Assembly (NCBI GenBank): GCA_902514485.1
Contig: CABXQY010000007.1
Span: forward strand, 1-34,574
Length of the DNA: 34,574 bases
Origin: an uncultured Candidatus Poseidoniales archaeon
GTDB taxonomy: Archaea > Thermoplasmatota > Poseidoniia > Poseidoniales > Thalassarchaeaceae
Direction: 5' to 3'
Each line of letters starts with the position of its first letter. The stretch's first letter is position 1. This document shows, in pieces, positions 8,818-15,979 of the stretch. The notes beneath the pieces are model-generated. The model did no database searches. It was not told where the DNA came from and saw nothing but the letters and a program-made list of their open reading frames with translations. The translations under genes and the position numbers were made by a program.

Positions 8818-8823
8818 GAACTC

Positions 8824-8840
8824 GGGACACTACGTGTCCC
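8824..8840 (-). promoter_or_regulatory. Perfect dyad/hairpin directly before icmF
   Basis: GGGACAC-TAC-GTGTCCC has seven-base perfect arms around a 3-nt centre and ends 6 nt before the icmF ATG. As DNA it could be an operator over the transcription start. As RNA it would form a stable GC-rich hairpin at the 5' end of the icmF message. It is more GC-rich than its surroundings. Confidence 0.6.
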
Positions 8841-8858
8841 ATTTAATCCGCCGATTGC

Positions 8859-9422
8859 CTACTTTTGCAAATTTATACTAATCAAGGGTTCTTGTTCATT
8901 TCTTATTGGGACATAATTGGAGTCCATTAATGCCTTGAAACCTTCAGTTTCTTTGTCTAAATATTCAGGTTTTATGTTCACGAATCTTTTCAACATCCCT
9001 ACATATGATTCGTACGCTTGGATATTTTCAATCATTGATTTCTTAATTGATTTCATAAATTCTTTTTCTTCTGAAATATTGGCTCTAGTCCTAACTTCGA
9101 AAGCACCTTTATCGTTCATTCTGAAATCATGTGTAGAGTTACCTTGATTGATTTTATTCACTAAATGTTGAACTATGTCTGATACCTCATTTCCTATCTT
9201 CCAAGAAGACCTAGATTGAACTTCATACATACCGTCTTTTTCGAAGTTGAGTAAAATTTCCCAGATATCCTTCGGACTTTCAAAACTGGCATTAATGCCT
9301 CTATTTTTTGAATCTAATTCTAGATCATTCCATCCTAGTTCTCGTAGCCCATCAACGGTTCTTCGATACGCTTCGATTGAGTCAAGAGCCCCATCAACTG
9401 ACATTATAATCACATTCTCCAT
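8859..9422 (-). CDS. Uncharacterised 187-residue protein (possibly YbjN/CesT-like fold)
   Basis: The family is not recognised with confidence. An N-terminal helix (SIEAYRRTVDGLRELGW) is followed by alternating strands (LELDSKNRGINASF, YEVQSRSSWKIG), a helix, more strands (AFEVRTRANI) and long C-terminal helices. That order is reminiscent of YbjN/CesT chaperone-like folds. No signal peptide or membrane segment is present. It sits 41 bp upstream of icmF on the same strand and is divergent from the ubiquitin-like protein gene across a 155-bp gap. A role with IcmF is possible but nothing in the sequence shows it. Confidence 0.6.
   Translation of the reverse strand: MENVIIMSVDGALDSIEAYRRTVDGLRELGWNDLELDSKNRGINASFESPKDIWEILLNFEKDGMYEVQSRSSWKIGNEVSDIVQHLVNKINQGNSTHDFRMNDKGAFEVRTRANISEEKEFMKSIKKSMIENIQAYESYVGMLKRFVNIKPEYLDKETEGFKALMDSNYVPIRNEQEPLISINLQK
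8871..8877 (-). promoter_or_regulatory. TATA-like element for icmF
   Basis: Read on the minus strand the element is TATAAAT, about 26 bp upstream of a transcription start predicted near 8848, just outside the palindrome at 8824-8840. It lies inside the 3' end of the upstream 187-residue gene, so icmF could be transcribed on its own as well as by read-through. Confidence 0.4.
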
Positions 9423-9510
9423 ATTTCATTCTGTTATCTAAGTATGTATCACTCCTCCAGAGAAAGATAATTTTCCTGAACAGTTCATATACTCTTAGAT
9501 TGAATATTAC

Positions 9511-9532
9511 TTATGTCTGCGCCCGGACATAA
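9511..9532. promoter_or_regulatory. Operator-like dyad upstream of the ubiquitin-like gene
   Basis: TTATGTC-N8-GACATAA has perfect seven-base arms around a GC-rich spacer (TGCGCCCG). A TATA-like TCATATACT (about 9485-9493) puts the expected transcription start inside the dyad, a typical repressor position. It is also shared space with the promoter of the divergent 187-residue gene. One half-site, GACATAA, recurs at 11485-11491 in the leader of the TFB gene. Confidence 0.45.
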
Positions 9533-9564
9533 AATAGGGAAGCAAGTAGAAGTCATAAATTAAT

Positions 9565-9571
9565 GGAGGAG
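9565..9571 (+). promoter_or_regulatory. Shine-Dalgarno site that sets the Ubl start
   Basis: GGAGGAG lies six bases before the ATG at 9578. An ATG at 9563 overlaps this site and has no ribosome site of its own, so translation most likely starts at 9578, removing five residues (MEEQS) from the longest frame. Confidence 0.65.
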
Positions 9572-9577
9572 CAGTCA

Positions 9578-9793
9578 ATGGACGATATCAAGACAAATGT
9601 AGAAATCGCCGATAGAACTGGACATTCATCCCTTTCGCTAACGAAGAAAGAGACACTAGATCTCATCGAAGGCAATCAGGGATCTTGGATTTATCAAAAT
9701 AACCGAATGGTACAAGCAAGTGATATTGCTGATGCTAATTGGGCTGATGTTGGTACAATCCGAATAATGCCAGGTCTAACGGGCGGACAATGA
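9578..9793 (+). CDS. Ubiquitin-like beta-grasp protein ending in GGQ
   Basis: A 71-residue protein with the compact beta-grasp pattern. A strand with VEIADRTGHSSLSL is followed by a helix (KKETLDLIEG), the strand WIYQNNRMV and a terminal strand TIRIMPGLTGG. It ends Gly69-Gly70-Gln71. The di-glycine is the conjugation or thiocarboxylate end in ubiquitin, SAMP, ThiS and MoaD. The extra Gln must be removed before activation, which fits the JAB protease encoded by the next gene. Size, the R-x-MPGL-x-GG ending and the E1 neighbour set it apart from metabolic MoaD or ThiS, whose usual operon partners are absent. A strong Shine-Dalgarno sequence suggests high expression. Whether it modifies proteins or carries sulfur is unknown. 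Confidence 0.8.
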   Translation: MDDIKTNVEIADRTGHSSLSLTKKETLDLIEGNQGSWIYQNNRMVQASDIADANWADVGTIRIMPGLTGGQ

Positions 9794-9830
9794 AATATGC
9801 TAGTTAGTATAAGTCGGAATTTCAAAGAAG

Positions 9831-9852
9831 ATGGATGGTCTTTTCCATCCAT
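9831..9852 (+). terminator. Stem-loop between the Ubl and E1-JAB genes
   Basis: ATGGATGG-TCTTTT-CCATCCAT is a perfect eight-base stem with a six-base loop, extendable by one G-U pair. It starts 38 nt after the Ubl stop. No T-run follows on the plus strand, so it is more likely an attenuator, RNA-processing or 3'-stabilising element than a full terminator. It could give more Ubl than E1-JAB from one transcript. Confidence 0.5.
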
Positions 9853-9922
9853 TATCTCAGTGGTGTAGAACAATGACTGCCGAATTGGTGCGAGGCCAAT
9901 AATATCGAAAGGAAGTAAAAAT

Positions 9923-11131
9923 ATGATTAAAAAAAGTGAATTGATAATTGGAATAATAGGGGCAGGAGGCATAGGTTCTAACTTAACCTCAGTTCTTTAC
10001 CCTACTTTACAGCAGGGTGATTTAATTGGAAGATTGGGCGATATAAGGATACGTATATATGATTCAGACATAGTAGAAAAAAGTAATTTACCACATCAAA
10101 ATTTCACGGTTTCAGATGTTGGTGCTTTGAAAGTTATCAGCTTATGTAATCGTCTCTGGTCGAACACTGATAAATCTTTTACAGATGGACCAAATATAAT
10201 TTTAGATCCATCTCCATGGGATATCAGGGTAAAGGGCGATTTAGATGAATGTGACTTAGTAGTCGTAGCAGTTGATTCTCATCAAGCTCGTAAAGTGGTT
10301 CATGAAAACTGTGAATCTTGGTTGGACTTACGATGTTTAGGCGATGGGTATATTGCGATAGATAACACTGTTGATACCTCAATAGTCTCTCAATTAACTC
10401 CTAATCAAGAGTCGCAGTCTTGCCAATTTGAAGGGGCGATTGAATCTGGAAATATACAGTTCGGATATATGTCTGCGGCTGCTCATGGTGCGCAATGGGT
10501 CATCCAGTCTTTACGTATTATTTCGGGTGAGGACAACGCCCAAAGACCTCTTCCTCAGATTTCAAATATTACTTTTGGTACTGCTGCCAGATTAGAACAA
10601 GGAATAACTGATTCAAATAATGAGGCCCAGGATTCTTCAATATCGCCACATATTCATTCTCAATTAGAGATAGATAAGATGGTAAAATCTGGAAATCATG
10701 ATTCTATAGTAATTAAGGAAACATTAGCAGCTTTCGCTGAGAAAAAGGATTGGATATCTCTTTGGTCTTTGGCAAATGAATTAGGTCGAGAGGTCAGTAT
10801 ATTATATGATCAAGAATTAACTATGTGGGTCGATATCGGCACTTCTGGACGCGTAGAATTATCTCCTCCAATAGGATCTTTGACTCCCTATAAACTCTGG
10901 ATACACACACATCCGAGAGATGCTTATTGGTCATCTACCGATAAAGATACAATTGCTATATATTCGGAAATTTTAGATGAGGCTATTGTCCTTGGTCATG
11001 ACCACTTCAAAAGAACAATAAAATCGGGTGATCAACACTTTGATTTCCTTGAAGACTTTGGGCCATTAAGTCGATGGACTGATGAAATAATATGTGAATA
11101 TTCTGTGTCCGAGGTTTCAGAATGCCAATAG
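9923..11131 (+). CDS. E1 (ThiF/MoeB)-JAB fusion enzyme for the ubiquitin-like protein
   Basis: A 402-residue two-domain protein. The N-terminal E1 domain (about 5-225) has the nucleotide loop GAGGIGSN (13-20), IYDSDIVEKSNLPHQNF (Asp47, Asp49, Glu52, Asn55, Gln59), Lys70 and VVAVDS (Asp118 region), as in adenylating ThiF/MoeB/Uba enzymes. The usual NL-x-RQ Arg is His58. Cys130, Cys138 and Cys167 (QSCQFEGAIESG) are candidates for the thioester or persulfide residue. The C-terminal JAB/MPN domain (about 280-385) has a Glu-bearing first strand and the zinc motif HTHPRDAYWSSTD, giving His328, His330 and Asp340 as ligands. One protein could therefore both trim Gln71 from the Ubl and activate its glycine. 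It lies 129 bp after the Ubl gene and overlaps the next start by 10 nt. Confidence 0.88.
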   Translation: MIKKSELIIGIIGAGGIGSNLTSVLYPTLQQGDLIGRLGDIRIRIYDSDIVEKSNLPHQNFTVSDVGALKVISLCNRLWSNTDKSFTDGPNIILDPSPWDIRVKGDLDECDLVVVAVDSHQARKVVHENCESWLDLRCLGDGYIAIDNTVDTSIVSQLTPNQESQSCQFEGAIESGNIQFGYMSAAAHGAQWVIQSLRIISGEDNAQRPLPQISNITFGTAARLEQGITDSNNEAQDSSISPHIHSQLEIDKMVKSGNHDSIVIKETLAAFAEKKDWISLWSLANELGREVSILYDQELTMWVDIGTSGRVELSPPIGSLTPYKLWIHTHPRDAYWSSTDKDTIAIYSEILDEAIVLGHDHFKRTIKSGDQHFDFLEDFGPLSRWTDEIICEYSVSEVSECQ

Positions 11132-11355
11132 ATGATGAAGAGTCAGTCAAAAGGTTGAATCATTTACTTGACTCTTCAGATAAAAAATCAATAGGCATAG
11201 ATTCGATAATAAATACGATAATAGGGGAAGATGCGGACGATGAAATCAAACAACTGGTGAAGATAGCTTTAGATAATCTTGATGCAGGAATTACAATGAA
11301 GGAACTTGCAGAAGGTGTGATGAATTTATACAAATGGAGGGAATCTCAATGTTGA
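11122..11355 (+). CDS. Small helical protein translationally coupled to E1-JAB
   Basis: A 77-residue, mostly helical, acidic protein of unknown family. Its ATG lies inside the last codons of the E1-JAB gene (10-nt overlap), so it is almost certainly co-translated with it. The C-terminal helix reads ITMKELAEGVMNLYKW and the protein ends in Cys. It is too short for an E2 domain and has no Zn motif. It could be an adaptor, substrate or subunit of the E1-JAB enzyme, but only the gene order supports this. Confidence 0.65.
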   Translation: MPIDDEESVKRLNHLLDSSDKKSIGIDSIINTIIGEDADDEIKQLVKIALDNLDAGITMKELAEGVMNLYKWRESQC

Positions 11356-11462
11356 TCAGTGAATACTGTAAATCTCTTAGTCTGAAACGTTATTTTATCG
11401 TAAAAGTAAAAATCTCGCTCTCTCTGATTTTGTAATAAATCGGGTAGACATTGATGCACGAG

Positions 11463-11576
11463 ACCGCAAAGTTTAAGCGCCTTCGACATAACCTCGTAAG
11501 TCCGGCGAAGAGACCTACCTATTTGGGACTGGAGTGTTCTCCCTTTTCGGGCCTTGAGGCGATTAAGATGTGCGGT
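11463..11576 (+). promoter_or_regulatory. Possible structured RNA leader of the TFB gene
   Basis: This 114-base stretch is clearly more GC-rich than its flanks and can fold as a closed multi-hairpin. The closing stem is ACCGCA (11463-11468) with TGCGGT (11571-11576). An inner stem is CGCC (11478-11481) with GGCG (11504-11507), plus GAC/GTC inside it. Further hairpins are GGAG-TGTT-CTCC (11531-11542) and GCC-TTGA-GGC near 11552-11561. The ATG at 11568 lies directly before the closing strand. It may be a regulatory leader or an overlapping small RNA. A 39-codon N-terminal extension of the TFB frame from the TTG at 11451 is the alternative explanation. Confidence 0.3.
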
Positions 11577-12581
11577 ACAGATAGAGAAAATAGTAGAATA
11601 AATGGTAGAGAAAATTGTGAAGAATGTGGGAGTAAATCGATAGAAGAAGGTGTCTCACATTATCATTGCGGTAATTGTGGGATTCAACTTGAATCATTAA
11701 AGTATGACACTTGCTATACCTTTCCTAGCGAGGTTAAAACTACAAGAAGAACGAATAGTTCTTCTGATTTAGGTAGCCAGATAGGTATTGATAAGAGTAG
11801 TTCCTATCAATCAAGGAGATTAGCCGCTCTTCAAGATAGACATTCTCGTAGAAATCTTAGCTATACAGATAAGATAGTTAAAGAGGCGGAGATTGCTAAT
11901 TTATCTCCATCAATTTGCCTTAAGATTGCAGATATAATTTCCAAAGCTAATAGCCGAATGGAATTAACTCATAACAGAGATGGCATGATTGGTTTACAGT
12001 TAATATCTACTAGAGAAGATAGGTCTCAGTATAGACGTAGAGTATATGCTATCGCTGCTTTAGAGCTCTTGAGCCGTAATTTAGAATCGGAAGCAATTCA
12101 AGTATTAGAAATTGCATCAAAATGGGGCATCGACAAAAGTGATGTTTCCCAGGCGATTAAACTAATCAATAAAGTTTCAATATCTGTAAATGACTGTCTT
12201 TCAGTTAGCGATATGAATAATCAAACAAACGACCCATCTATCATCAGAAACGATAAACTAAATCATTTTCTTTTCAACTTCCAAGATCATCTTTGTGAGA
12301 TTATCGATTTTGATTCTGCCAAAGAAATAATTGCCTTAGCCATTGAAATACTTTCTAAAGAAGGTGAGCCTATTGGAAATGCATCTTTCATCAACAATGA
12401 AGGGAAATATCGTAATATGTCTCCCCAAAAAGCTTCCATGGAAACAATAATCGATTCTATGATTCATCTTGGATATTCGGATGAGATAATTAAGTGCTTC
12501 TTCAATAAAAAACCTGTACCTGGTATGACTTGGGTTAACTCTAGGCTGGGCCGACGGCGTCGAGCTCTCGTTGAAGATTAG
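11568..12581 (+). CDS. Divergent transcription factor B (TFIIB-like)
   Basis: A 337-residue protein with the TFB layout. The N-terminal zinc ribbon is CEEC ... CGNC (Cys17, 20, 34, 37). It is followed by a B-reader/linker-like stretch (LGSQIGI ... SRRLAALQDRHSRRN) and then helical repeats that resemble the cyclin core (SPSICLKIADIISKANS, YRRRVYAIAALELLSR, EIASKWGIDKSDVSQAIKLI). The second cyclin repeat is less clear and the C-terminus is very basic (RLGRRRRALVED). TFB recruits RNA polymerase to TATA-bound TBP. This copy is divergent and lies in an accessory block, so it may drive a local regulon. I start it at the ATG at 11568. The frame is open back to a TTG at 11451. Its 3' end overlaps the convergent gene by 41 nt. 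Confidence 0.72.
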   Translation: MCGTDRENSRINGRENCEECGSKSIEEGVSHYHCGNCGIQLESLKYDTCYTFPSEVKTTRRTNSSSDLGSQIGIDKSSSYQSRRLAALQDRHSRRNLSYTDKIVKEAEIANLSPSICLKIADIISKANSRMELTHNRDGMIGLQLISTREDRSQYRRRVYAIAALELLSRNLESEAIQVLEIASKWGIDKSDVSQAIKLINKVSISVNDCLSVSDMNNQTNDPSIIRNDKLNHFLFNFQDHLCEIIDFDSAKEIIALAIEILSKEGEPIGNASFINNEGKYRNMSPQKASMETIIDSMIHLGYSDEIIKCFFNKKPVPGMTWVNSRLGRRRRALVED

Positions 12582-14178
12582 CAATTCTCATTGTAACCTC
12601 ATTCATTTGTTCTTCTCTGATTTGAGCCCCTTCTGGATCTAAATCATCTGCGTCTCTATTGATAATTTGTAATCTTTCTCTCAATGCGACCATTTGTTCC
12701 AAATAATTTCTATTAACGTCAAACCTTTCTCTCAAATTATCATTTTTATCTCCTCTACGTTTGTATCTTTCAAATCTCGAAAGATAATTATCCAATGTGT
12801 TTATATTTTTTCTTGACGTTTTATCATTAAGAAGAGCCATCACGATACTCCCGATTGCATCCCCAATTACCAGTTTACGAAGACTTGGGTCTTCTACAAT
12901 ACAGAGTTCTTTTACTAGCATATTCCTTTCTCTTTCCATACGTCGCACATTCTCTCTTCTTAATATCAAACTATTGATTTGTCCTTCAATTATATCTTGT
13001 TCTGAAATAGGTTCCGCAGTTACTCTGAATCTGGATTGATGTGGACCACGCCCTGGTATAACAGCATACTTAACTCCTAATTCTCCTGTGATCTCTATTC
13101 TCTTTTCTCCTTTCAGGACTACCTTTCCATCTGACTGGTCTATTATTCCTCTAAGGAATTTAATGCCATTAATATCTGGATTTGATATTATATTTCTTTC
13201 AGTATCACAGAATAAGTAATATTGTAGGCATTCGAGTTTCATTCTATTCTCATGACCGGGCGTACTAAGGCTCCAATTAACTAATGTAGACCATATATTC
13301 AGGTCTCTAGGCACTCTTATTTTTCTCCAGGTATCATTTCTCCGAACCCTTATCATAAGTCTTCCTTTATCTACTATTAATGATCTAGGTGCCTTATATC
13401 CTTTGATGAACATTCTTGTCCGGTCTGACAATATTTCCGACCAGTTTTCCAACCAATAATCCCTATCTCCATTCTTCAGAAGTGAATGTTGTATGAAAGT
13501 AAATACTCTTTTATTATCTATTAGATCTAGGTTGTTTATTGGATGTTTAATTATATTCTTATCTCCAATCTTAGTAAAACCTCTCGCCCAGTGCCAAGCA
13601 TTAGGCTTTTTATCTAAATATTTATTCTCAGTAGCTAAGGAAATTGAGTATAATAGAATTTTCCAACTGAATGTATTATTCTGATTTGTTTCTAGAACCT
13701 CTCTTAAGTCTCTGTATGGTAATCTAATAACTTCGCCATCTAAGAAAAAGTTACCTGAAATCCAAGATAAATGGCTCCCATCTGGTAAAACCCATCCTCT
13801 CTGCAGCCTTTTCATATCATTTATTTCTTCAATTTTATATTCTCTAATTATATCCCGAAATATCCTTTCATCTTCCTTTGAAAATATTGTCTCAGTATCT
13901 TTCCTTTCTCGGTTCCAGTCGAAGATTCTTGTTTGTAATTTCTCAACTCTACTATCTAATGCCCAATCTCTGTTTTCTAAATCCAAAAGATTGAATGATT
14001 TCCAAACCTTTCTGATATCCGAAGAAGGGTTCCCAATGCTTTCTCTTAGTTCATCTGCTTTTTTCTTATCTGGAATCCAATCTAAGCTATATCCTGTAAT
14101 TTTAGGTACTAGAAGTGTGCATATCTCACACCATATCTGAGTTTTACTGTTTTCTCCACAAGCTACGCATTCACTCAT
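12541..14178 (-). CDS. Large zinc-ribbon protein, paralog B (unknown family)
   Basis: About 545 residues from the ATG at 14178, which overlaps the upstream stop by 8 nt (ATGAGTGA) and indicates coupled translation. The N-terminus is a zinc ribbon (CVACGENSKTQIWCEIC). The body shares several blocks with the upstream gene: a PDG-x2-LS segment, PRDLNIWSTLVNW, a GELGVKYAVI strand and GDAIGSIVMALLND followed by TLDNYL. The pair are therefore tandem paralogs. The C-terminal 90 or so residues are charged and predicted coiled coil (ERLQIINRDADDL, MRIANLQRELDAV). There is no nuclease, ATPase or protease motif that I can name. Arg, Trp and Ile are abundant. The function is unknown; a nucleic-acid- or ribosome-linked role is a guess from the zinc ribbon and basic character. 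Confidence 0.75.
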   Translation of the reverse strand: MSECVACGENSKTQIWCEICTLLVPKITGYSLDWIPDKKKADELRESIGNPSSDIRKVWKSFNLLDLENRDWALDSRVEKLQTRIFDWNRERKDTETIFSKEDERIFRDIIREYKIEEINDMKRLQRGWVLPDGSHLSWISGNFFLDGEVIRLPYRDLREVLETNQNNTFSWKILLYSISLATENKYLDKKPNAWHWARGFTKIGDKNIIKHPINNLDLIDNKRVFTFIQHSLLKNGDRDYWLENWSEILSDRTRMFIKGYKAPRSLIVDKGRLMIRVRRNDTWRKIRVPRDLNIWSTLVNWSLSTPGHENRMKLECLQYYLFCDTERNIISNPDINGIKFLRGIIDQSDGKVVLKGEKRIEITGELGVKYAVIPGRGPHQSRFRVTAEPISEQDIIEGQINSLILRRENVRRMERERNMLVKELCIVEDPSLRKLVIGDAIGSIVMALLNDKTSRKNINTLDNYLSRFERYKRRGDKNDNLRERFDVNRNYLEQMVALRERLQIINRDADDLDPEGAQIREEQMNEVTMRIANLQRELDAVGPA

Positions 14179-15877
14179 TTTGTTCACCATTTTTATTTTG
14201 TTCAATTAAATCACAGAAATATTCGAATCTTGCTTCCATATCCATTTCCTGCAATATTTCATCTATCATCCCATTAGAACACTCTTGCTGCTGTTGTTCA
14301 AATTCATGCTGCTGCCTTTGTATTTCTAAGTCATTTTCGTATTCTGCAATTGCCCTTTCCATATTTTCATCCATTTCATGGTGCCCGTGTATTGATTCTA
14401 GTCCTGCATGATAATCATGTTCTACTACTAACCAATAATTATCTTCTTTCATCATTGATGTATTTTCATCGATTGCATTCAAAAAGAAGTCTAAAGTGAA
14501 TATATAATCCCTGGATGATATATCATTACGTAGTGCTAGTAAGTAACCTACTGCTATATCTCCAAATGGTAATTCATTATGCTCAATTAAAGGATCTATG
14601 CATAAATCTAATCCTTTATTTTCTACGTCATCGATATCTCTGATACTTTGTATAGCATCTACTTTCAGTTTATCCGAATCAAAAGAAGATATAATATAGT
14701 TAATACCTGAAAATCCTTGAACTTTTAATCCGGATTTTTCACTATTGTAGTTAATTGGAATTAATGATGAATTCTCGTTTAATTTTTCTATTTCATCATG
14801 TAATAATCTCGCAGATTTTATTTGCCTAAGACTAGGTTTCCATAGTTCAAATTCCTTACTCCAGTTCATCAAAAGTCCTTGTATAAATTCTGAGCCTCGA
14901 CTTCTATTTGGTAATAGTGCACATACCATTAATTTCCTCCAATCTCTAGGGTCATTACCAAGTGAACATGTTGAAGGTTTATTTCTATCAATCACGAGTA
15001 TCTTCAGTCTATGATTTTGCGTTACTAATATGGGTGTACTCTTCACCCGATATTCTTCATTATAATCGTCTTTACCATAGTATATCTCAGTCCATAATTC
15101 TCCGATCATTCCGAAATCTTCATCGTTCATTTGTTGAATATTTTCTCTTATTATTTCAGAAGGGCATCTAGTATCACCTTCTTCTCTAAACTTTCTTTCA
15201 ATGAATTCTAAGAATGGTGGGACTCTTGATGTATTAATGTAATGCCCAGAAGGTACTTTCATCGGATAGTCAATACCTCTCCATGAGTTTTCCTTAATCC
15301 AATTCCCCCATTTTTCTTCATTATTACCAAAGTAATTTATAGGTGGTAGAGGTGTTGTAACACAGTCTAGCAATAATATAAAATCACTCCAATTCTTAAT
15401 TGAATTTATCCTAAATGGATTCGAGAGCCATTCAGCAATATCAAGAATAGGTATGTTACTAGTCAGTCTGTACCTATTTATGAAAATTCTTTGATCTTTC
15501 TCAATAGATAGTGGCGTCCCATCAGGGAAATAATAATTCCCAGGGCGTAGAATATTGAATCTTCTCCAATAGTCTACCAATTCATCCCATTCTGAAGATT
15601 CATAATTCCAATGTGCTCTTGAATCCTTACGCTTAGATTTAAGAATTGGTGGAATAGATATAGGTATGTTAACCTCTTGTACCAAATGTCGAATCCTTTG
15701 TTCAATCTTAAGTCCTCTACCTGGTTTCAGAAATCTATTGATTTCTTTATTCCTTTTCTCTGATAAAAATGGCCTGACATCTGTCCCCATGAATTCAGAT
15801 GATAACATTAGACAACCTGAACATAATTCTAATTCGTAAGGGATTTTTCCTGCACACCATTTGCAATATTTAGTCAT
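14171..15877 (-). CDS. Large zinc-ribbon protein, paralog A (unknown family)
   Basis: About 568 residues, and first gene of the two-gene operon. The start at 15877 (MTKYCKWCAGK) is preferred over 15910, because a TATA-like element at 15901-15907 puts the transcription start at this ATG. The N-terminal zinc ribbon reads CKWC ... CSGC. Blocks shared with paralog B are YFPDGTPLS, PRDWRKLMVCALLP, FSGINYIIS and GDIAVGYLLALRNDISSRD-x-x-FTLDFFL. The C-terminus differs. It is acidic and Gln-rich (EIQRQQHEFEQQQQE) instead of a basic coiled coil, so the two may form an asymmetric complex. No enzyme motif is recognised. Confidence 0.75.
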   Translation of the reverse strand: MTKYCKWCAGKIPYELELCSGCLMLSSEFMGTDVRPFLSEKRNKEINRFLKPGRGLKIEQRIRHLVQEVNIPISIPPILKSKRKDSRAHWNYESSEWDELVDYWRRFNILRPGNYYFPDGTPLSIEKDQRIFINRYRLTSNIPILDIAEWLSNPFRINSIKNWSDFILLLDCVTTPLPPINYFGNNEEKWGNWIKENSWRGIDYPMKVPSGHYINTSRVPPFLEFIERKFREEGDTRCPSEIIRENIQQMNDEDFGMIGELWTEIYYGKDDYNEEYRVKSTPILVTQNHRLKILVIDRNKPSTCSLGNDPRDWRKLMVCALLPNRSRGSEFIQGLLMNWSKEFELWKPSLRQIKSARLLHDEIEKLNENSSLIPINYNSEKSGLKVQGFSGINYIISSFDSDKLKVDAIQSIRDIDDVENKGLDLCIDPLIEHNELPFGDIAVGYLLALRNDISSRDYIFTLDFFLNAIDENTSMMKEDNYWLVVEHDYHAGLESIHGHHEMDENMERAIAEYENDLEIQRQQHEFEQQQQECSNGMIDEILQEMDMEARFEYFCDLIEQNKNGEQNE

Positions 15878-15900
15878 CAAATGAATATTGTTCCGACAGA

Positions 15901-15907
15901 TTATAAA
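15901..15907 (-). promoter_or_regulatory. TATA-like element for the zinc-ribbon paralog operon
   Basis: On the minus strand it reads TTTATAA, centred about 26 bp before the ATG at 15877, which implies a leaderless transcript. It shares a short divergent region with the zf-TFIIB gene, where ATCTAT (15933-15938) and ATAGAT (15954-15959) form an inverted repeat. Confidence 0.5.
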
Positions 15908-15979
15908 CAATTCAAAAAACAGCTACATTTACATCTATCCGGGTAAGTATTGAATAGATATGATTTATTCGAGAGAATT

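Follow-up and report, generated by a model that had tools for sequence, protein, structure and literature searches.

The stretch of DNA under study, which is called the window throughout and comprises 34,574 nucleotides, is a contig of a MAG that is 53% complete, and its nearest relatives are recorded as uncultured Candidatus Poseidoniales and Thalassarchaeaceae (Marine Group II, MGII). It carries a block of seven genes, here termed the cassette, in which a small ubiquitin-like protein (Ubl) is encoded next to a fusion of an E1 adenylation domain with a JAB/JAMM metalloprotease domain. The features of this block, with their positions in the window, are the following:

8818..15949, no strand assigned: entire cassette, about 7.1 kb with 7 genes, a single unit flanked by icmF and a zinc-ribbon gene
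8859..9422, minus strand: gene for a 187-aa protein, function not assigned; missing at empty sites, relatives in loci L031-L036
9563..9793, plus strand: Ubl, 76 aa, ending GLTGGQ, beta-grasp-like (open reading frame, alignment, AlphaFold2, Foldseek, dN/dS)
9923..11131, plus strand: E1-JAB fusion, 402 aa (open reading frame, Pfam, alignment, AlphaFold2, Foldseek)
9923..10597, plus strand: E1 adenylation domain, aa 1-225, with GAGGIG, D47, D49, N55, Q59, K70, D118 and R123, invariant Cys167 in SCQ, and H58 for the R of NLxRQ
10655..11107, plus strand: JAB/JAMM domain, about aa 245-395, with E290, H328, H330, S337 and D340
11122..11355, plus strand: 77-aa protein, overlapping the 3' end of E1-JAB; dN/dS about 0.23-0.38
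11451..12581, plus strand: divergent TFB-like transcription factor, joined to viral TFB-like genes by iterative profile search
12541..14205, minus strand: Cys-domain protein 1, 554 aa, candidate Ubl transferase, with an N-terminal zinc ribbon, invariant Cys435, and GD and ND motifs
14171..15910, minus strand: Cys-domain protein 2, 579 aa, paralogue of Cys-domain protein 1, with LDLCIDP...GD...ALRND

Five congeneric genomes (G001, G006, G008, G009 and G011) lack the cassette at this site, with icmF immediately adjoining the zinc-ribbon gene, which in the window starts at 15950. At these empty sites the stretch 8859-15910 is wholly missing, and in the three genomes compared the intergenic flanks can still be recognised at either side. 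Since the seven genes are present or missing together, they are most simply regarded as one functional unit. The initial annotation had described a minimal system of a Ubl and a single E1-JAB protein, a description which proves too narrow for a cassette that also includes two Cys-domain proteins, a TFB-like factor and a 77-aa protein. In many loci across the order, JAB is followed by a small protein of similar size (often ~78 aa); the helical character of the 77-aa protein was judged by eye only. A weak resemblance to YbjN (E=0.09) applies to a protein of another locus, not to the 187-aa gene itself. An integrase, a tRNA and a long repeat were looked for at the cassette ends and none was found. 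The two borders of the cassette site (8818-8857 and 15937-15957) bear conserved sequences, among them the palindrome GGGACACTACGTGTCCC, whether or not a genome has the cassette.

The Ubl reading frame encodes 76 aa from its first ATG (9563) and 71 aa from an inner ATG (9578), and its product ends in PGLTGGQ, in agreement with the GG-x tail first proposed for it. The AlphaFold2 model is of moderate confidence (pLDDT 77.5) and displays a bb-a-bb-(a)-b arrangement, and its top Foldseek matches are mostly SUMO, ubiquitin and UBL folds at TM scores of about 0.45-0.55 (about 0.5 to ubiquitin-like folds), none of them below E=0.001; at this level of model confidence, the predicted fold is beta-grasp-like, in line with what the initial annotation had expected. 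The gene is under purifying selection (dN/dS about 0.08-0.14 in comparison with more distant same-genus orthologues). The GG is invariant in all 46 aligned Ubls of host and viral origin, and the tails that follow it vary between zero and two residues. Tandem poly-Ubl genes with 2-4 copies, most of them with GG ends, are found at five loci (L071, L072, L073, L088 and L089; the poly-Ubl precursor of G127 has four copies), a Ubl-Ubl-E1 fusion in two genomes (L046, L047) and, in one genome (L061), a Ubl-GGG joined to a Cys-domain-related protein. Together, the free variation of the tail, the poly-Ubl genes and the Ubl fusions form the pattern of a modifier that undergoes processing and is in heavy use.

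Several variants of this small protein were seen beside the aligned set. A few Ubls outside the alignment end in AG-x rather than GG (AGQ, AGRV, AGLV; L089, L053, L055, L066), and the E1 of L053, L055 and L066 has an additional C-terminal segment. At L076:4550-6223, a Ubl domain is fused to an AAA ATPase, and the adjoining L076:6594-7019 combines a Ubl with a putative zinc finger. The Ubl gene adjoins a gene of FtsZ-type appearance (by eye) in another genus (L077-L079, L081), and RFC-like and RpoP-like genes at L071, L089 and other loci.

The presence of E1 and JAB in one chain, as initially annotated, is borne out by profile and alignment evidence. Pfam ThiF (PF00899) matches the E1 half above its cutoff (2.7e-10), and in the alignment of E1 proteins the G-rich loop and the D, N, Q, K and D residues are invariant, which are the ATP-site features of the E1/ThiF superfamily. 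The Arg of NLxRQ, as known from MccB and ubiquitin E1, is replaced by His in nearly all host E1s and by Tyr in viral E1s, so that adenylation by these proteins is not guaranteed; Cys167, in SCQ, is invariant. The JAB half of the window protein taken alone has no Pfam match, and Prok-JAB is matched by 6 of its 13 relatives (best 2.1e-5). The JAMM metal-site motif is complete and each of its residues invariant in the alignment, with a JAMM loop that, in the window protein, lacks one residue relative to AMSH. The nearest solved relatives of the JAB profile are the deubiquitinases AMSH-LP, AMSH and Sst2, and Caldiarchaeum CsRpn11 is a weak PDB match (E=0.11). In the AlphaFold2 model of the fusion (pLDDT 86), the E1 half resembles UBA5, ThiF, Cap2 and MccB by Foldseek.

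Purifying selection also acts on E1-JAB (dN/dS about 0.08-0.16, again relative to more distant same-genus orthologues), and from these sequence comparisons the Ubl and E1-JAB genes are judged to be real and maintained. The search for further E1-JAB fusions near a GG-x protein, which had been proposed as a check, brought up no fewer than 8 additional genomes or contigs with this arrangement; like the selection on the two genes and their co-occurrence, this speaks against chance. Most genera of the order encode E1 and JAB as two adjoining genes, and the fusion is a local variant. A contig labelled Verrucomicrobia (L107, QOAX01000180.1) carries an archaeal E1-JAB locus and is probably misbinned, and an outside E1 match in G157 was rejected as another E1 in a different context.

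The distribution of the cassette genes was followed across 146 related Poseidoniales (Marine Group II) genomes, of which 57 lie outside the family of the window. Both E1/JAB and Ubl are present in 63 genomes, E1/JAB alone in 7, Ubl alone in 6 and neither in 70 (Fisher p=7e-26), and E1/JAB is present in 40 of the 57 genomes sampled outside the family. The Cys-domain is in turn associated with the Ubl/E1 set (E1 or Ubl): both are present in 73 of the 146 genomes, the domain alone in 6, the set alone in 3 and neither in 64 (p=3e-30). Within the family of the window alone, the corresponding numbers are 30 with both, 3 and 4 with one of them and 52 with neither (p=5e-16). In 22 of the 70 E1-positive genomes, no more than 5 kb separate the Cys-domain from E1.

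Homology links the 554-aa and 579-aa proteins with one another and with a viral protein of ~400 aa that is encoded between Ubl and E1, and with two paralogues the window falls within the range of 1-4 per genome. Among 111 diverse host and viral sequences of otherwise low identity, only nine positions of the domain exceed 85% conservation, namely a Gly, a Val, Cys435 (99%), Ile436, Gly448, Asp449 (100%), Asn460, Asp461 and Thr470. Near-invariance of one Cys, in a protein that otherwise changes fast and whose presence follows that of Ubl and E1, is as expected of a thioester relay enzyme. Pfam (including its E2 families), NCBIfam, PADLOC and the PDB were searched for a profile match to the domain with no result, and an E2 fold consequently stays a candidate only; a genome search with PF00179 returned no UBC-type match, and none in the controls either. 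On the strength of these sequence patterns, the Cys-domain proteins are considered candidate Ubl transferases, their strict E2 status being putative. The initial annotation had seen no E2 or RING protein and suggested an E2-independent system, a suggestion that is weakened by a domain which co-occurs with Ubl and E1, is found near E1 and, on viral contigs, lies between both. By eye only, the ICID of the domain resembles the E2 motif G-x-ICLDIL, a likeness that is given no weight here. A family of ~230 aa (A7), considered as a separate E2 candidate, was rejected when members of it fell into the Cys-domain family.

Our favoured reading, which we consider probable with some reserve, is that the cassette encodes a ubiquitin-like protein-conjugation system of the Poseidoniales (MGII), in which JAB would trim the modifier, E1 would activate it and a Cys-domain protein would transfer it. 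The JAB half would remove the residue or residues beyond the GG of the Ubl and later cleave the conjugates. There is precedent for processing of this kind in Cap3, a JAB protease that cuts a tandem-fused modifier at its C-terminus (PMC10097602). The E1 half would adenylate the exposed Gly and may hold the Ubl on Cys167, from which the Ubl could be passed on to a Cys-domain protein at its invariant Cys, this protein acting as an E2/E3-like transferase. Targets may include transcription or viral proteins, given the TFB-like neighbour, whose recurrence beside both the host and the viral genes points to a possible connection with transcription.

The strongest competitor, unlikely in our view and still to be taken seriously, is conjugation by E1 only in the manner of the Haloferax SAMP system, where the Ubl would go straight to lysines and the Cys-domain proteins would be substrates, regulators or Ubl readers. 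Archaeal conjugation that proceeds without a classical E2 is indeed known from SAMP, the Cys-domain has no E2 Pfam match, and the E1-JAB and Ubl-E1 fusions place E1 at the hub. However, the Cys-domain tracks both Ubl and E1, and its near-invariant Cys amid fast change fits a relay enzyme rather than a substrate.

Sulfur transfer, in which the JAB-trimmed Ubl would be converted into a thiocarboxylate and donate sulfur to a metabolite or tRNA, appears less probable again. Sulfur-transfer systems with JAB-trimmed GG-x carriers exist, and the profile of the cassette E1 is nearest to PRTRC_ThiF and ThiF. Against this stands the gene content of the cassette and of the genomes that surround it. Moco, thiamine, rhodanese, sulfurtransferase and acceptor-biosynthesis genes were not recognised among the window ORFs or in the cassette; a molybdopterin or thiamine neighbourhood had been named at the outset as evidence against the system proposed there. 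A separate MoeB/ThiF-type E1 is present in all 17 relatives checked, which makes the cassette a second system, and a ThiS/MoaD protein in 17 of 18 genomes. In the window's own, 53%-complete MAG only the cassette E1 is seen, and its own ThiS/MoaD is located elsewhere, in line with the independence from MoaD/ThiS that had been proposed. With a canonical E1 elsewhere in the relatives, a dedicated sulfur role for the cassette is less needed, and poly-Ubl arrays and viral carriage are atypical for sulfur carriers.

Prokaryotic ubiquitin-like systems are best known from bacterial defence. The conjugation system proposed here shares parts with several of those described and differs from each of them in other respects. 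In operons 6a-6e of Iyer, Burroughs and Aravind (2006; PMC1779556), E1 is likewise fused or adjacent to JAB, some small Ubls end in a C-terminal Gly, rhodanese is absent, and some contain multi-Ubl proteins and E2-like partners; unlike these bacterial operons, the cassette is archaeal and viral, has its JAB C-terminal to E1 and no E2 domain, and its Cys-domain, TFB-like and 77-aa genes are outside the operon types described. The PRTRC ThiF/JAB/Ubl system provides the best NCBIfam model for the E1 (TIGR03736, 2.7e-14), yet the score of 53.1 bits falls far short of the curated cutoff of 144.75, and other PRTRC genes were not recognised in the cassette; among the viral fold matches, the one with the highest target-normalised TM (0.72) is likewise a PRTRC_ThiF. 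CBASS Cap2/Cap3 and bacterial defence E1-E2 systems likewise combine E1 and JAB, and the E1 half matches Cap2/E1-E2 by Foldseek and PADLOC, whereas the cassette has a dedicated Ubl, and an E1-fused E2 domain and a CD-NTase were not recognised among the window ORFs scanned. The archaeal SAMP/UbaA/HvJAMM1 system also operates with a Ubl, an E1 and a JAMM protease without a classical E2, but the cassette differs in its distinct E1, fused JAB and Cys-domain, and the SAMP/UbaA-type role probably falls to the separate MoeB/ThiF-type E1 and ThiS/MoaD of these genomes. In Caldiarchaeum subterraneum, a JAMM enzyme (CsRpn11) processes a Ub precursor (PMC6043591), whereas no UBC-type E2 or RING was recognised here, with the PF00179 search matching no control either. 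No description of the combination seen here in archaea and their viruses, which includes the Cys-domain family and poly-Ubl genes, turned up in the literature checked. Ubiquitin, ThiF and JAB are unmentioned in the magrovirus literature checked, and an earlier description may exist in Philosof (2017) or Burroughs (2009).

Related gene sets are also present on virus contigs. When IMG/VR was scanned with the alignment of E1-JAB proteins, 80 loci were obtained (no match with a single-protein query), and a second viral scan with a viral Ubl yielded 30, partly on the same contigs. Across 106 viral E1 loci, on contigs that are partly repeated, JAB accompanies E1 in 100, the TFB-like gene in 98 and the Cys-protein in 96, and Ubl, E1 and JAB are found together in 25 of the 30 viral Ubl loci within the stretch retrieved. 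On viral contigs with a resemblance to MGII tailed viruses, Ubl, Cys-protein, TFB, E1 and JAB all occur together, and in several contigs a chaperonin gene is located near the viral cassette genes. A chaperonin gene has been reported for MGII tailed viruses (PMC5332604; PMC10768690), and the resemblance to these is the reason for the host assignment to MGII; judged by these sequences, the viruses with cassette genes appear to infect the same archaeal group. In GenBank phage records, the viral E1 was matched only by distant ThiF proteins, mostly crAss-like, and the viral TFB and viral Ubl had no match.

The E1 tree separates host and viral proteins into two groups with 100/100 support, which points to old co-existence rather than recent copying. 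That the cassette is a decayed virus remnant without a cellular role, as the related gene set on MGII virus-like contigs and the polymorphism of the block within the genus might suggest, is very improbable in view of this split, the intact host genes under purifying selection, the spread of E1/JAB beyond the family of the window, and a window in which virus structural genes were not recognised.

The matching gene sets in archaeon and viruses suggest protein tagging on both sides of the virus-host relationship, the full set recurring in an abundant ocean archaeal order and on contigs of viruses that apparently infect it. A more far-reaching form of the conjugation reading, which we advance tentatively as a possibility, would see in marine archaea and their tailed viruses (as a clade of their own) a complete cascade with a new class of Ubl transferase, the Cys-domain family, which would act jointly with a TFB specific to the virus or the cassette, so as to seize or defend the transcription or the proteome of the host. 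The cassette offers a testable system both for Ubl transfer without a recognisable E2 and for tagging in archaeal virus-host conflict. At two loci (L041 and L042, in genomes G080 and G007), the JAB resembles viral JABs (by eye, against L144) and the E1 falls into the host group, which hints at gene exchange with viruses.
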